From Streptomyces alboniger (GTDB taxonomy: Bacteria > Actinomycetota > Actinomycetes > Streptomycetales > Streptomycetaceae), in assembly GCF_008704395.1 (NCBI RefSeq), contig NZ_CP023695.1:1550001-1614000 (forward strand): a stretch of 64,000 nucleotides of DNA, read 5' to 3'. Position 1 is the first letter of the stretch. Each line of letters starts with the position of its first letter. The translations under genes and the position numbers were made by a program. The notes under the pieces were generated by a model. It did not search any database. It worked only from the letters and a program-made list of their open reading frames with translations, and was not told the origin of the DNA. Of this stretch, positions 58,883-64,000 are shown piece after piece.

Positions 58883-59569
58883 ATGACAAGGGTCCTGGTC
58901 GTGGACGACGACTTCATGGTCGCCAGGCTGCACTCCCGGTACGTCGGCGCGGTGGACGGATTCACCGTGGCCGGTGTCGCCCACAGCGGCTCCGAGGCGC
59001 TCGGCGCGGCGGAGCGGCTGCGCCCCGACCTCGTACTCCTCGACGTGTATCTGCCCGACATGGACGGGATCGCGGTGCTCCGTGAGCTGCGGGCCGCCGA
59101 GGAGCGCGATCCGGGGCGGCAGCCGGTGGACGCCCTGTTCATCACGGCCGCGCGGGACGCGGAGGTCGTGCGGGCCGCGCTGCGGGCGGGCGCGCTGCAC
59201 TATCTGATCAAGCCGTTCGACCAGGCGGCCCTGCACGAGCAGTTGAGGCATGTGGCGGCGCTGCGGGCCCGGCTCGACGAGCTGGACGAGGCACGTCAGG
59301 AGGACGTCGACCACCTCTTCGGCGCGCGCCCGCCCGGTTCCCGGGGGCTGCCGAAGGGCCTCGCCGCGCACACCGCGGACCTGGTGGAGCAGACCTTGCG
59401 GGACCACCCCGGGGGCCTCTCGGCGTCGGAGTGTGCGGGCGCGGGCTCCCTCTCCCGCGTGAGCGCCCGCCGCTACCTGGAGTTCTTCGCGGACACGGGC
59501 CGCGCCGAGGTGACGCTCCGCTACGGGGGGACGGGGCGGCCGGTGCGGCGGTATCGGTGGGTGGGGTGA
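58883..59569 (+). CDS. CitB/DcuR-class response regulator, apparently orphan
   Basis: A 228-residue regulator. Receiver residues 1-120: VLVVDDDFMVARLHSRYVG, phospho-acceptor Asp in VLLDVYLPDMDG, Lys in YLIKPFDQ. A helical linker is followed by a winged-helix output (GGLSASECAGAGSLSRVSAR, RYLEFFADTGRAEVTLRYG) of the CitB type. Members work with CitA-type kinases that sense tri- and dicarboxylates; it is divergent from tctCBA and probably controls it. No sensor kinase lies on either side, and a truncated transposase starts 43 bp after its stop. Confidence 0.92.
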   Translation: MTRVLVVDDDFMVARLHSRYVGAVDGFTVAGVAHSGSEALGAAERLRPDLVLLDVYLPDMDGIAVLRELRAAEERDPGRQPVDALFITAARDAEVVRAALRAGALHYLIKPFDQAALHEQLRHVAALRARLDELDEARQEDVDHLFGARPPGSRGLPKGLAAHTADLVEQTLRDHPGGLSASECAGAGSLSRVSARRYLEFFADTGRAEVTLRYGGTGRPVRRYRWVG

Positions 59570-59602: not shown

Positions 59603-60780
59603 CAGCGCTTACTTAAGCCGGGTGCAGGAGCGGGTGGATGGTGTGGTGGACGAGCAGGTGCCCCCACAGCTCCTGCTCGACGCCGCCGGGCCAGCGTGAC
59701 CGCAGGACCGGCAGGGTGTCCCGTCGCAGCGTACCGACGGCTTCCAGAGACGCCCTGATCCCCCACCGCCGGCGGTACAGGGCTCGCAGAACGGGAGCTG
59801 GGTGCGCCTCGTGGTCCACGAGCGTCGTGATCAGGCGGTGCGGAGGGCCGTCGAGCACCCTGACCTTGGTACGCGGCCGCGCGGGCCCGCAGCGCACGTC
59901 GCAGAGGTAGGAGCCGTCGGGCAGCGCGGTGCGCTCCGGCAGTACGGCGACCTCCGACGGTCCGGTGCCCTCCTGCGGTACGGGCCAGGCGTCGGCCCGC
60001 CACAGCACGTCCGCGCCGGCGGCACGGATCGCGGGCAGCAGTTCCGGGTCGGCCGAGCCGTGGTCGGCGAGCAGCAGGTCTCCACGGGTCAGGGCCGCCA
60101 GCAGATCGTTCGTGAGTGCGTGCCCCGTCTCGGCGGGCAACTTCCCGAGCGCGGCCCGGGTGATGGAGTGGCTGCCGCACTCCGCCAGCGCCGCCAGATG
60201 CGCCTGCGGCAGGGCCGCGGAGCCCGCCCCGGTGATCGGCGGGTAGCTGTAACGGGCCCGGTTCTCCGGTGTGTCCGGGACGCCCATCGCTGTCGCGTCG
60301 ACCGCCATCACCCGCCGCCCCAGATAGCGGGCGCACCGTTCCTCCGTGCGCCGCGCCCGTGCGTCGCGCGCGGCTTGCGCGAACAGCGCGGCCAGCGGCT
60401 CGGGCCCCAAGCGCACGCGAGCCCGGGAGATGGCAGCGGACGTGGGCGCCGCGGGAGGGCAGCCGTCCTGCCGGGTCACCCAGGACATCGCTTCCGCCAG
60501 CCTCCTGGCCACCTGGTCGTAACTGTGCTGGGCGAACAGGCATATGGCGAGGATGAAGTACACGACTGTGCGGGCGGGCAGAAGGCGGTTGCGCCGCTCG
60601 GTCCTTCCGCATTCCGCGATCACGCGGTCCACCGCGTCGGGCGGAAACGTACGCATCAGCAGCGCGAGGGCGATGCGGTCGGACAATCCGTCGGTGGCCG
60701 CCGCCCTCAACTGCCCCGGCCGTGGCATCGGAGCACCCTCCCGGTCGTATTGATGAATGGCTTGCTTTAAGTCAGCAGTA
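59603..60780 (-). mobile_element. Truncated IS4-family element
   Basis: The interval holds an IS4-type transposase plus about 50 bp of 5' flank. The transposase stops soon after its YREK-type block, suggesting its 3' part and the element's inner end are missing. A short ACTTAA-containing similarity between the two edges is too weak to define inverted repeats, so the boundaries are approximate. No target duplication seen. Confidence 0.6.
59613..60728 (-). pseudogene. IS4-family transposase, C-terminally truncated
   Basis: 371 residues from ATG 60728 (GGGAGG upstream). N-terminal domain TDGLSDRIALALLMRTFPPD is the IS4 N-terminal domain. DDE residues are readable as VMAVDATAMGVPD, LLLADHGSADPEL, and the YRRRWGIRASLEAVGTL block (Y-x2-R-x3-E region). 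After LWGHLLVHHTIHPLLHPA it stops, where relatives have about 60-80 further residues. The protein therefore looks broken; the other end appears intact. The missing tail may have been removed together with the response regulator's partner kinase. Confidence 0.65.
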
Positions 60781-60822
60781 CCAATCGGCACCGACTTGCC
60801 CGACCCCTGGCAGGGGTAAACC

Positions 60823-60975
60823 ATGAAAACAAGCCGACACAGCCAAACCTTCCTTCTGCTGTCGGACGCGCATTTCTCGGCTCTGGTTGCATTGCACTTC
60901 GAAGAATCGATTCTGTGCAGAAGTCGACGGCCACGCGCGGCATGCGGAAGAAACACAGAAAGGGTTGGGCGATGA
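60823..60975 (+). CDS. Possible 50-residue leader ORF coupled to the caspase gene
   Basis: ATG 60823, preceded by AGGGG at 6-nt spacing, reads MKTSRHSQTFLLLSDAHFSA and ends at a TGA that overlaps the caspase ATG (ATGA). Codon usage is less GC-biased than neighbours. Either a translationally coupled leader or a chance frame; no homology is recognised. Confidence 0.25.
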   Translation: MKTSRHSQTFLLLSDAHFSALVALHFEESILCRSRRPRAACGRNTERVGR

Positions 60976-62606
60976 CAGATCGCGCGTTGCTCATCGGCAT
61001 CGACGAGTATCCGGATCCGCTGAACAACCTCAACAGTTGCGTCGCCGACACCGTCGCCTTCACCGACCTGCTCGGCCAACTCGACTTCGACAGTTCCGGA
61101 ATCCGTGTGCTGCTCAACGCGGACGCGACCCTGGCAGCGACCCGGGACGGTCTCGACTGGTTGCTGGACGAGGCCGAGGAGGGGGACCGCCTGGTCTTCT
61201 TCCAGTCCTCCCACGGGTACCGCTACCTCAAGGGTGACGTCATGACGGAGGTGCTCTGCGCCTACGACGAGTTCCTGGAGGACACCGAACTCGCCGAGCG
61301 CACCGCCCTCCTCCCCCAAGGCGTTCTCACCGTGGTGCTCGACTCCTGCCACTCAGGCGGCATGGAGAAGTCCCTCTTCCGCAGGGGCCTTCAGGAGACC
61401 GTGCGCACCAAGGTGTTCACGCCACCCCGGGAGAAGCTCCTGGAACGGGCCAAGTCGGTCTCCCTGGCGCGCGCGCTGAAGCCCTTCGGCCGCACCACCT
61501 TGCGCAACGAGGCGTCCCTGACCCTGAACATGGCGCACGTCCCCAACAAGGCGCCCAGGACCAAGGGCGCCATCACCGGGGCGAACGAGCTGAACGCGGT
61601 GCTCCTCACCGCCTGTCAGGCGGACCAGACCGCGGCGGCGGGCAGCGCCCCCACCAACGGGCTCTCGGCGTTCACCTACGCCCTGACCACGGAGATGGAC
61701 CGGTCGGCCTCCGTCTCCGCCCTGCGCGACCGAACCGTGACGCGCATCGAAGGCCTCAACATGAGCCAGACGCCCTGCGCCTTCGCTCCCTCGGATCAAC
61801 CGCACCTCCTCACCGAAACGTTTATCTCCCGGCAGCAGACAAAGAGCAAGGAGATGATCCGACAGGTCGAGGAGATGCTCAAAGAGGTGGCCTACGCAGG
61901 CGGTGGGCACAAACCTTCCACCCCTGGAAAGGGCGAAGGAATCTCAGCGAAAAGTCACACACCGGAGGTAAAGGGAATGAGCACGGTAGAGCTTGAGAAG
62001 TCGGTCGGCGCGGCCACCGAAAAGATACTCGCCGGCGTCAAGACGGCGGGTAAGAGCAAGTCGGTCTGGGGCAACGTCCCGTCCGGCCTGGACTACCAGC
62101 TGGACACGCAGACGGTCGCCGCCGTTCTCGCCCCCGCCATGGCGGCCGCGATTCCGGTGGACGGCAAGAGCTTCACGGTGCAAGCGTCCGTGACGGACAC
62201 GGACAATCTCCTCGACAAGGGCTTCTGGGACTCCGCGGCCAGGCTCGCACGGGTCGTCGTACCCGCCGTCCTCGACGAGCTGACCAAGAGCGGCGGTCCC
62301 GGGAAGGGTCACTCCAAGGCCGCCGACCCGGACGAGGTGAACCGTGAGATCGCACGGGCGGTCCCGTCGGCCCGGATGGGTGACCCGAAGTTCTTCGGGC
62401 TCGTGGAGACGCTGATCGGCATCGCGGCGCCGATCGTCATCAACGCGATCACCAAGGACTTCAAGCCCAACGAGCGTCCCACCGGCGGCAGGATCCAGGT
62501 CGATCTGCCGGCCGGCATGAGCGAGAGCGAGAGGAAGAGCTTCTGGGACGACGCCCTCGACGTGGTCAGTACGGCGCTGCCGTACGTCATCCGCGCCATC
62601 GCCTAG
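60972..62606 (+). CDS. Caspase-family (peptidase C14) protein with three repeated C-terminal amphipathic helices
   Basis: A 544-residue protein. Residues 1-280 are a caspase-like domain: ALLIGIDEYPDPLNNLNSCV opens the fold, the catalytic His81 lies in FFQSSHGYRY and Cys126 in VVLDSCHSGGM. A charged linker (about 285-345) follows, and the C-terminal part contains three similar segments at about 418-440, 474-495 and 524-544, each starting F[WF] and containing a mid-helix Pro (KGFWDSAARLARVVVPAVL; FFGLVETLIGIAAPIVINAI; FWDDALDVVSTALPYVIRAI). ATG 60972 has AAAGGG upstream. Prokaryotic caspases act mostly in conflict or cell-death systems; the next two genes encode a trypsin-like protease and a hydrolase. 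Confidence 0.9.
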   Translation: MTDRALLIGIDEYPDPLNNLNSCVADTVAFTDLLGQLDFDSSGIRVLLNADATLAATRDGLDWLLDEAEEGDRLVFFQSSHGYRYLKGDVMTEVLCAYDEFLEDTELAERTALLPQGVLTVVLDSCHSGGMEKSLFRRGLQETVRTKVFTPPREKLLERAKSVSLARALKPFGRTTLRNEASLTLNMAHVPNKAPRTKGAITGANELNAVLLTACQADQTAAAGSAPTNGLSAFTYALTTEMDRSASVSALRDRTVTRIEGLNMSQTPCAFAPSDQPHLLTETFISRQQTKSKEMIRQVEEMLKEVAYAGGGHKPSTPGKGEGISAKSHTPEVKGMSTVELEKSVGAATEKILAGVKTAGKSKSVWGNVPSGLDYQLDTQTVAAVLAPAMAAAIPVDGKSFTVQASVTDTDNLLDKGFWDSAARLARVVVPAVLDELTKSGGPGKGHSKAADPDEVNREIARAVPSARMGDPKFFGLVETLIGIAAPIVINAITKDFKPNERPTGGRIQVDLPAGMSESERKSFWDDALDVVSTALPYVIRAIA

Positions 62607-62617
62607 CGACCGGCGCG

Positions 62618-62650
62618 GGGACGGCGGCCGCCGCGAACGGCCGCCGTCCC
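62618..62650 (+). terminator. Strong 13-bp stem-loop between caspase and trypsin-like genes
   Basis: GGGACGGCGGCCG, 7-nt loop CCGCGAA, CGGCCGCCGTCCC: perfect 13-bp stem, 12 bp after the caspase stop and 34 bp before the protease ATG. Without a U-tract it could be a partial terminator or 3'-end stabiliser that sets the ratio of the two products. Confidence 0.6.
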
Positions 62651-62683
62651 GTCGGCATCCCACCCAGTGGAGGGACTTGCCCG

Positions 62684-63646
62684 ATGCCCGAAGACAACGC
62701 CGTCTCCGATGGGACGGCTGCTCGCTGGAGGGCCAGTGCCGGGCAGATCGCCGATACGGCGACAGCGCTGCGCGAGCGGGACCTGGCTCTGGCCAACGCC
62801 CCGGACGAGATCGAACGGCGTCAACGGCGGCTGGCCGACCAGGGGCTCGGCCTGGAGGCGCTCGTCGGCGACGACGACTCCGTCGGGACGAACTTCTTGA
62901 GTCGCGGCACCACCGCTGCCCGGTCGGTGAGTCGCGTGGTCAGCGTGGCGTCGCGCCGTGATCCGCCCGTCCCGCTCGCCACGGGAGTGCTGATCGCTCC
63001 ACGGCTGCTCCTGACGAACAACCATGTGGTGCCCGGCGAGGTCGATGCCGCGGAGGCGGCCGCGCAGTTCGGCTTCGAGGTCGATGAGGCGGGCCGTGAG
63101 GGTGAGTACGTGACCTGCGCGCTTGCCCCGGAAGTGTGCTGGTTCACCGACGAGGAGCTGGATTTCACCGTGGTGGCCGTCGCCGACTCGCACGGCGAGG
63201 CACCGGGAGAGGCCTACGGCTGGGTGCCGCTCATCGAGCAGACCGGGAAAGCGCTCAAGTGCGAGGTGCTGAACGTGATCCACCACCCCGGCGGCGAAAG
63301 GAAGCGGGTCAGCATCCGGGCGAACCGGATGGTGGCCCAGGACGAGATCTGGCTGCGGTACACCAGTGACACCCGGAAGGGCTCGTCGGGAGCGCCCGTC
63401 TTCAACGATCAGTGGGAGATGGTCGCGCTCCATCGCCGAGGTATCAAATTGCTGGACGAACAGGGAGCGCCGGTCGCCCGCGGCGGGGAGCGCTGGACAC
63501 CCGAGATGGGTCGTGACGCCGCTGTGTACATGGGAAACGAAGGCGCCAGGGTGAGCAGAATCGTCAAGCGGCTGAGAGCGGCCCCTCTCACCCCGCCGAT
63601 GCGGACCCTGATCGATGCGGCGATCGAGGCGGGTGCAGACGTATGA
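62684..63646 (+). CDS. Trypsin-like serine protease
   Basis: A 320-residue cytoplasmic protein (no signal peptide). After an N-terminal helical, charged region of about 75 residues (possible adaptor or coiled coil: RQRRLADQGLGLEALVG), the chymotrypsin-fold domain has His114 in LLTNNHVVPGE, Asp160 in EELDFTVVAVADS and Ser235 in RKGSSGAPVFND, with GEAYGWVPLIEQTGK between. GGAGGG precedes ATG 62684. Trypsin-like domains of this cytosolic type recur in bacterial conflict systems beside caspases. Its stop overlaps the next ATG. Confidence 0.88.
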   Translation: MPEDNAVSDGTAARWRASAGQIADTATALRERDLALANAPDEIERRQRRLADQGLGLEALVGDDDSVGTNFLSRGTTAARSVSRVVSVASRRDPPVPLATGVLIAPRLLLTNNHVVPGEVDAAEAAAQFGFEVDEAGREGEYVTCALAPEVCWFTDEELDFTVVAVADSHGEAPGEAYGWVPLIEQTGKALKCEVLNVIHHPGGERKRVSIRANRMVAQDEIWLRYTSDTRKGSSGAPVFNDQWEMVALHRRGIKLLDEQGAPVARGGERWTPEMGRDAAVYMGNEGARVSRIVKRLRAAPLTPPMRTLIDAAIEAGADV

Positions 63647-64000
63647 ACGCGACGTTGGTGTTGGTCCACGGCCGCAAGCAGGAGTGGAAGGACCCCGTCG
63701 AGCTCCGGCGCACATGGCAGGCGGGGCTGGCGGCAGGGCTTGTCAAAGCGGGCTTGCCGCCGGTGGACGGCCCCGTGCTCTTCCCGTACTTCGGGAACGT
63801 ACTGCGCAGGATCACTGACACCTTGGCCCAGAGCAATGCGGCCATCGACCTGGAAACGCTGCCCTCGGACCCCGACAGGCCGGGCCCGCTGCACCCCTGG
63901 CTGGGGTCGGACATCGGCGTGATGGAACGGAAGATGCTGGAGGACATGGCCGTCGGAGCGGGCTGGGTTCCCGGGAACGCCGACGACGACCTGGAACGCC
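63643..64000 (+). CDS. Alpha/beta-hydrolase-like protein, C-terminus outside window
   Basis: The first 119 residues only. ATG 63643 overlaps the protease stop (ATGA). LVLVHGRKQEWKDPVELRR is an oxyanion-type HG motif, followed by LFPYFGNVLRRITDTLAQ; the nucleophile elbow must lie beyond the window. Probably a lipase, esterase or peptidase, translationally coupled to the trypsin-like protease. Confidence 0.65.
   Translation, partial: MNATLVLVHGRKQEWKDPVELRRTWQAGLAAGLVKAGLPPVDGPVLFPYFGNVLRRITDTLAQSNAAIDLETLPSDPDRPGPLHPWLGSDIGVMERKMLEDMAVGAGWVPGNADDDLER

Follow-up and report, generated by a model that had tools for sequence, protein, structure and literature searches.

Related Systems

The cassette described here encodes, among others, a caspase, an alpha/beta hydrolase and a trypsin-like protease, and its protein families are known from published conflict systems (PMC7159879). 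Among these, EACC1-caspase systems are two-gene systems made up of a small partner gene and an actinobacterial caspase whose C-terminal domain varies, and VMAP/MoxR-vWA ternary systems combine a caspase with an alpha/beta hydrolase and a trypsin with a partner. The Rpn genes-within-genes (PMC10327210) have an internal start that gives a separate C-terminal domain, together with variable repeats, and the Canu caspase-nuclease and trypsin-pronuclease pairs (PMC12799240) place a protease with hydrolytic effectors in mobile loci. Here, we describe four genes at 59613-64536 of a 64,000-nucleotide stretch of the Streptomyces alboniger genome (the window, G000:C1:1550001-1614000; genome of 8 Mb, one contig), numbered from the first base of that stretch. 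Among them is a caspase gene that carries a C-terminal domain of repeated units, here called FW units. From the sequence comparisons, we consider it reasonably probable that the four genes form a mobile conflict cassette based on a caspase of the metacaspase type, acting in self-destruction or against invaders.

The locus is like the EACC1-caspase systems in the respects named, but its partner lies 3′ and is without a Pfam or NCBIfam match. As an EACC1-type caspase the protein was rejected, its score being 34 bits where the cut-off is 140, and the 5′ neighbor, in 8/8 Streptomyces loci, is a divergent transposase relic rather than an EACC1 gene. Compared with Rpn, the toxic part here would be a protease instead of a nuclease, some lineages encode the partner as a gene of its own, and the second product is only predicted. 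The likeness to the Canu pairs extends to relatives with a trypsin-Endonuclease I fusion; in S. alboniger, however, the pair is trypsin plus alpha/beta hydrolase, and Pfam searches found no metallo-beta-lactamase nuclease among the four cassette proteins. A trypsin-nuclease (NucA-trypsin) system was rejected for S. alboniger, which has the alpha/beta hydrolase instead, the Endonuclease I fusions occurring in relatives. No MoxR, vWA or VMAP was found by Pfam among the four inserted genes, the genes outside the insertion being unscanned. The closest solved structures by profile were MC4 and MC9, which we take to be plant type II metacaspases; the S. alboniger caspase differs from these in being bacterial and in having an FW domain and operon partners. 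No description of a module of caspase, FW repeats and the adaptor introduced below turned up in the literature searched, which left subscription literature uncovered.

The Caspase and Its Probable Internal Start

The caspase gene has the following features:

60972..62606, + strand: caspase (C14) with C-terminal FW-repeat domain, long product, 544 aa
61964..61969, + strand: internal Shine-Dalgarno sequence, GGAGGT
61977..62606, + strand: predicted short product, FW-repeat domain alone, 209 aa, from an in-frame ATG (Met336)
62208..62288, + strand: FW unit 1, residues 413-439, the last residue being the conserved Lys439
62382..62456, + strand: FW unit 2, residues 471-495
62529..62603, + strand: FW unit 3, residues 520-544

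The protein matches Peptidase_C14 (PF00656, E 2e-21), which places it in the peptidase C14 family, and the PADLOC "caspase" model (1.5e-16). An alignment of 26 sequences, that of S. alboniger among them, shows His81 and Cys126 to be invariant. The MC9 match spans residues 5-285, and an AlphaFold model was confident for the N-terminal part and of low confidence for the linker at ~288-341. The caspase was found in 6/392 Streptomyces genomes (E 1e-30). When named genomes were added and duplicates removed, the fused form was present at eight distinct Streptomyces loci: G000 (S. alboniger), G093 (WAC 01529), G128 (S. umbrinus), G054, S. smaragdinus, S. calvus, S. xanthophaeus and RP5T. More widely, the best 80 of 155 caspase loci from 84,980 species were analyzed, of which the 19 closest are L091-L109 and the remaining 61 are more distant. 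Plasmid and phage collections held distant caspases only (5 and 1 records).

The C-terminal 209 residues start at Met336, which is invariant in the same 26 sequences, and the linker that precedes it is not conserved. In 16/16 fused genes with a readable junction, the junction ATG is preceded, at 3-12 nt, by a Shine-Dalgarno (SD) match 5 nt or more in length, the internal-start arrangement of an Rpn-type gene within a gene; the 16 come from Streptomyces (eight), Microlunatus, Bradyrhizobium (two), cyanobacteria (two) and Myxococcus (three), and L103 was left out because of a run of N. These 16 comprise a first set, in which the SD preceded 14/14 junction ATGs, compared to 12/115 other in-frame ATGs (2 of these 12 being the second Met of one Bradyrhizobium site) and 4/59 out-of-frame ATGs, plus two Myxococcus genes (2/2). 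The peptides at the junction vary by lineage (EVKG, KGTS, RKD, GDKS, AGEQT and NEGVKT), whereas the DNA signal is kept. Codons ending in A or T made up 76/144 of the nine-codon stretches before the junction ATG against 1266/8719 elsewhere, an excess that was individually below 0.05 in 11/16 genes and gave a combined p of 7e-9 over 9 lineage representatives; this nine-codon span, like the SD length and spacing, was chosen after the junctions had been viewed. Folding of the mRNA at the internal start, calculated for five loci, showed no clear difference from shuffled sequences.

Since all 16 fused genes have the SD and ATG at the junction, with A/T-ending codons enriched ahead of it, the caspase gene very probably yields two products, the long protein and the FW domain alone. 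Three things together make the case: the contrast with other ATGs, the variation among the encoded peptides and the codon signature. We considered the possibility that the SD remains from a fusion of genes, that only the long caspase is made, and that the adjacent transposase-like gene is an insertion sequence (IS) decaying by chance. Separate-gene forms of the FW domain do exist: tblastn with the S. alboniger domain found one in Microvirga (L096, 1.5e-6) and one in Arthrobacter (L098, 2.5e-9), a gene in the same place aligned weakly in L097, L099 and L100 (Streptomyces CG 926, an actinomycete bin and Tessaracoccus), and at three plasmid loci, all from root-nodule bacteria, the gene right after the caspase is a separate one, repeat-rich in two. 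A mere leftover would nevertheless have had to keep both SD and codon signature across Streptomyces, Microlunatus, Bradyrhizobium, cyanobacteria and myxobacteria, and we regard this combined explanation as very doubtful.

In the three plasmids (L207, L208 and L209, of Paraburkholderia, Sinorhizobium and Bradyrhizobium), the caspase is followed by the separate gene, and N-acetylmuramidase/GH108 genes lie downstream in L207 and L208 (2/3 plasmid loci), a lysis-cassette-like arrangement. In another locus, L075 (G033), a distant caspase sits amid large genes that resemble those for a repeat protein and an ATPase; this may be a further ternary system.

The FW-Repeat Domain

The FW unit has a consensus of roughly [DE]K.FW....(V)....P.(V/I)I.A(L/I).K. 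There are three units in S. alboniger, eight in a Bradyrhizobium metagenome-assembled genome (L105) and three to seven in Myxococcus (3/5/7 by species); on a Bradyrhizobium plasmid, the repeat gene in the place of the FW partner has 15.8 units of 162 nt that are 99% identical. A profile detected the domain in 16/19 of the closest loci, and three more were assigned by position and weak alignment. In the 61 more distant loci, profiles gave one weak FW match and no adaptor match. Both profiles were built partly from loci that they then scored; the FW matches independent of the building set are L095, L102-L104, L108 and L109. Units for the profile and for helix analysis were chosen by regular expression and by eye, many from the same loci. 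The plasmid repeats are FW-like by position and by eye, with units of L208 and L209 included in the profile and L207 not found by it. In the proteins scanned, no Pfam or NCBIfam model matched the FW domain or the adaptor at its cut-off or higher.

AlphaFold predicted three long helices (416-438, 472-494 and 518-543), one per FW unit, with low-to-medium confidence and joined by low-confidence linkers. These helices have a hydrophobic, partly amphipathic character. Conservation within the domain is among the highest at lysines of the linkers: in alignment numbering, K104 is invariant and K160 and K187 are nearly so. This statement depends on the domain alignment, because a count of 36/38 FW units with Lys or Arg is biased by a regular expression that favors charged residues before Phe/Trp. 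Characterized C14 proteases, animal caspases excepted, cleave after Arg or Lys (PMC5756287). Together with the conserved linker lysines, this makes the FW domain a candidate substrate of the caspase, an assignment that we offer tentatively.

An inhibitory role like that of RpnS appears about as plausible. The short FW protein would then be an intragenic antitoxin or titrating subunit that, bound to the FW part of the caspase, keeps the enzyme inactive, as RpnS does RpnL, and neither toxin nor substrate. The gene-within-gene layout and variable repeats are the same as in Rpn (PMC10327210), and the variation in copy number among Myxococcus species and the near-identical plasmid repeats agree with this; a simple inhibitor, however, would be unusual at the length that the partners reach (up to 874 aa) and with their hydrophobic helices and conserved basic linkers. 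We give this explanation a real chance, although one short of even. The hydrophobic, partly amphipathic helices would also suit a role in development or competition, in which a secreted or membrane-active peptide would be processed out of the repeats by the caspase, tandem-repeat precursors being suited to peptide release. The sporadic presence of the cassette and its insertion as a unit do not fit a conserved developmental gene, and no exporter is found among the four cassette genes. Such a role is thus unlikely.

The Adaptor

Downstream of the caspase stop, the window contains:

62618..62650, + strand: hairpin directly 3′ of the caspase stop, arms 62618-62630 and 62638-62650, found by eye
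62667..62686, + strand: deletion scar, the ribosome-binding site of the lost adaptor, now abutting the trypsin ATG
62684..63646, + strand: trypsin-like protease, 320 aa (Trypsin_2, 8.6e-19)
63643..64000, + strand: alpha/beta hydrolase, 297 aa (PGAP1, 8.9e-6; SHSLG), continuing to G000:C1:1614536

In S. umbrinus (G128), a gene for a 122-aa protein, the adaptor, lies directly 3′ of the caspase, and in G093 the adaptor is fused to the trypsin. In S. alboniger the adaptor is gone, and the trypsin ATG directly follows an adaptor ribosome-binding site of the G128 type: a 20-base string including the ATG, at 62667..62686, is identical to the adaptor start in G128. By this comparison, the adaptor is deleted from the S. 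alboniger copy.

An adaptor profile (A2) of 11 proteins, drawn from caspase neighbors, matched 5/392 Streptomyces genomes, all five among the 6 that have the caspase, and 0/386 others (p 8e-11); 4/5 of the genomes found were already rows of the profile, so that the absence elsewhere is the informative part and unlinked, distant adaptors could be missed. The adaptor was found in 10/19 of the closest loci, and follows the caspase in 8/10 actinobacterial loci among those 19, the profile including rows from most loci that it recovers. Among 8000 candidates scored from a search of 5.8 billion proteins, there were 34 adaptor relatives, several on contigs of the same size as caspase contigs (322462, 10221775, 605201, 93966 and 216301). 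A search for relatives in the PDB gave a best E of only 0.43. We conclude from these alignments that the conserved core is the caspase, its predicted helical FW-repeat partner and the ~120-aa adaptor.

The Transposase-like Gene and the Spacer

On the other side of the caspase, the features are:

59613..60728, - strand: IS4-type transposase-like gene, apparently domesticated, 371 aa, divergent to the caspase (Nterm_IS4, 4.3e-27; DDE_Tnp_1, 2.2e-6)
60767..60779, no strand: TTAAGTCAGCAGT, conserved intergenic motif (AAGTCAGC in 8/8 loci)
60904..60913, no strand: GAATCGATTC, palindrome upstream of the caspase (7/8 loci)

The earlier note took this gene for a truncated transposase of a broken IS element. 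It is in fact a complete open reading frame (ORF): relatives share its start and, almost exactly, its end, although it is shorter than true IS4 transposases. It is complete and divergent to the caspase in 8/8 distinct Streptomyces loci, with a spacer of 190-256 bp and a shared protein start of M/V-PR-x-GQ. The Glu of the RWE.E motif, presumably the catalytic Glu of IS4, is absent in 9/9 caspase-linked rows (8 strains, since the rows of G211 and S. calvus are one strain) and present in 14/14 aligned IS rows, 9/23 IS loci having been dropped because their start motif was unmatched; by this measure the gene is not an active IS4 transposase. The DEIK motif and the C-terminal tail are also lost in every caspase-linked row relative to the 14 IS relatives. 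The ratio of nonsynonymous to synonymous substitution rates (dN/dS), determined here and below for three species, was 0.20-0.22, similar to the values for the trypsin and the hydrolase. These alignments indicate that the transposase-like gene is a catalytically dead, domesticated partner gene under purifying selection.

The contrary explanation, introduced above, is chance decay of an IS. Relics of IS4-type terminal repeats do flank the gene in three species, and the gene is the sole match in its own genome at E 0.001, which says little about domestication because 38/66 genomes with a transposase match also list one copy (the others up to 10). Decay does not account for an open frame with the same partner in 8/8 diverged loci and a dN/dS of about 0.2.

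The spacer keeps TAAGTCAGC in 8/8 loci and GAATCGATTC in all except S. smaragdinus. An inverted copy of the TTAAGTCAGCAGT motif lies beyond the transposase-like gene in S. smaragdinus, S. calvus and S. xanthophaeus, and flanking terminal inverted repeats are clear in 3 loci; they are degenerate in G000 and G128. Because of these inverted copies, TTAAGTCAGCAGT, of which the S. alboniger genome has one exact copy, is probably a relic of an IS terminal repeat. It is also a possible operator, and TTAAGTCAGC, within 60729-60971, may be an operator sequence for the transposase relic, for which we infer a putative role as regulator or sensor. When 19 loci were scanned for AAGTCAGC in related IS elements, only the G128 caspase locus had it. 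In L073, a subtilisin-family gene lies directly behind a transposase relic (L073:11284-12162; PF00082, 1.4e-23), and a matching stretch was seen by eye in L092.

The Trypsin and Hydrolase Pair

The three genes read in the earlier note are indeed there: the caspase with His and Cys, the trypsin-like protease, in which His (NNHVV), Asp (ELDFTVV) and Ser (GSSGAPV) are present by eye, and the hydrolase, whose start at 63643 overlaps the trypsin gene in an ATGA. Reading past 64000 completed the hydrolase, which stops 536 bases beyond the end of the window; the genes that follow, which we take to encode a chitin-binding-type secreted protein and then a lipase-like protein, are unrelated to the cassette. 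The hairpin ahead of the pair is GC-rich, with a similar one in G093 and G128, and may uncouple the expression of the downstream genes.

The trypsin and hydrolase follow the caspase in 3/8 Streptomyces loci (G000, G093 and G128), and tblastn did not find them in the other 5/8, of which the RP5T sequence covers ~1.2 kb beyond the adaptor. In 199 genomes, 21 trypsin places (E 2.5e-42 or better) comprised 3 linked to the caspase, 10 hydrolase fusions, 7 with an Endonuclease I-like partner and 1 at a contig end; the hydrolase fusions, in one frame, are in 10 genomes without this caspase. This tally suggests that the trypsin and hydrolase form a genuine functional pair, in which the partner can be exchanged and which is attached here to a core of another kind. 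A dedicated cascade, running from caspase to trypsin to hydrolase by successive activation, would be consistent with the co-directional, ATGA-coupled trio, intact in three species, and with a dN/dS of about 0.1-0.3 for the catalytic parts of all three proteins; protease-activated pro-enzymes are also a published theme (PMC12799240). Yet the caspase occurs without trypsin or hydrolase in 5/8 loci and the trypsin-hydrolase fusions without the caspase, and a cascade is therefore quite improbable. The earlier note's idea of the trio as a unit, which called for homologues that co-occur, is largely overturned by the same separation.

Several relatives of the trypsin have other surroundings. The Endonuclease I fusions, at 7 Streptomyces places (e.g., L074:5904-8105 and L090:6579-8780), resemble protease-nuclease effector pairs; the nuclease part was identified by PF04231 (4e-27) in L074 and by tblastn in the remaining places. 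In L076:6051-6807 and L080:5416-6150, runs of 63-70 aa ORFs with a shared motif like TALRTPFQTPAVDRNP..GVEA are flanked by a large gene that looks subtilisin-like by eye and by the trypsin-hydrolase fusion, and look like a multi-peptide precursor family. L086-L089 (G175, G064, G137 and G173) share an alpha/beta hydrolase, a ~370-aa protein, a ~1000-aa protein and a distant trypsin, a conserved locus that is possibly a ternary conflict system; in L089, the ~370-aa and ~1000-aa proteins are in one frame and a caspase-like gene adjoins (tblastn 6e-6).

Insertion of the Cassette

The four genes at 59613-64536 are one insertion between chromosomal neighbors, a response regulator (58883-59569) before and a secreted protein (from 64668) after. 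In 9/61 relatives searched (G002, G004, G006, G015, G019 by a partial match, G021, G028, G029 and G030), about 2 kb at most separates these flanking genes, and the other relatives had no such close pair among the matches listed. G093 has the same filled site. The DNA just past the hydrolase stop matches intergenic sequence in 4/7 sites, and two of the seven are filled by another gene. Thus, the description of the locus in the earlier note as accessory, mobile and probably conflict-related holds up, given the insertion, the presence in 6/392 genomes and the published families, although not for the trio as such. In the comparison with defense profiles that it proposed, PADLOC recognized the caspase; a set of 10 proteins (seven from outside the cassette, two cassette proteins and the adaptor of G128) gave generic matches only, to methyltransferase and receiver-domain models. 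Because the matches of the scanned neighbors were of this kind, no defense island is evident.

Proposed Mechanism and Implications

We propose that the long and short products would assemble via their FW helices, the short form setting a threshold. A trigger relayed by the adaptor would cause the caspase, which is expected to cut after Lys or Arg, to cut at the conserved lysines between the FW helices. The cell would then be killed or arrested by the freed membrane-active helices, the released caspase, or the trypsin and hydrolase, and the transposase relic may govern the promoter via the old terminal-repeat site. A self-destruct or defense role in general is, in our estimate, somewhat favored. 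The fuller version, in which the caspase gene encodes a cleavable string of about 3 to 16 membrane-active helices, released as a pore or peptide toxin, triggered by the adaptor and, in Streptomyces, controlled by the transposase, is rather unlikely.

Several observations count against this interpretation, besides the late choice of SD and codon limits, the overlap of the adaptor profile with its matches and the generic PADLOC results given above. The junction ATG is the best in its own gene by duplex energy in just 7/14 cases, synonymous shuffling within genes often restores the SD (P 0.0025 to 1.0), and the 42-nt dip in GC at the junction is within the lowest 5% in 6/14. The FW model is of low confidence, with helix block means of about 42-70, a basic tail residue is present in only 27/38 hand-picked FW units, and the dN/dS of the FW domain (0.32-0.60) is the highest of the cassette. 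The S. alboniger locus is itself without the adaptor, and no sensor gene was found.

To our knowledge, the restraint and the targets of most prokaryotic caspases are open questions, for which this locus, if correctly interpreted, would provide a compact, testable model. A caspase and a copy of its tail, made separately, would form a pair; one gene could in this way set the self-destruction threshold. A dead transposase would have been recruited into a self-destruct system. The FW repeat and the adaptor, which matched no Pfam or NCBIfam family here, would gain a context.

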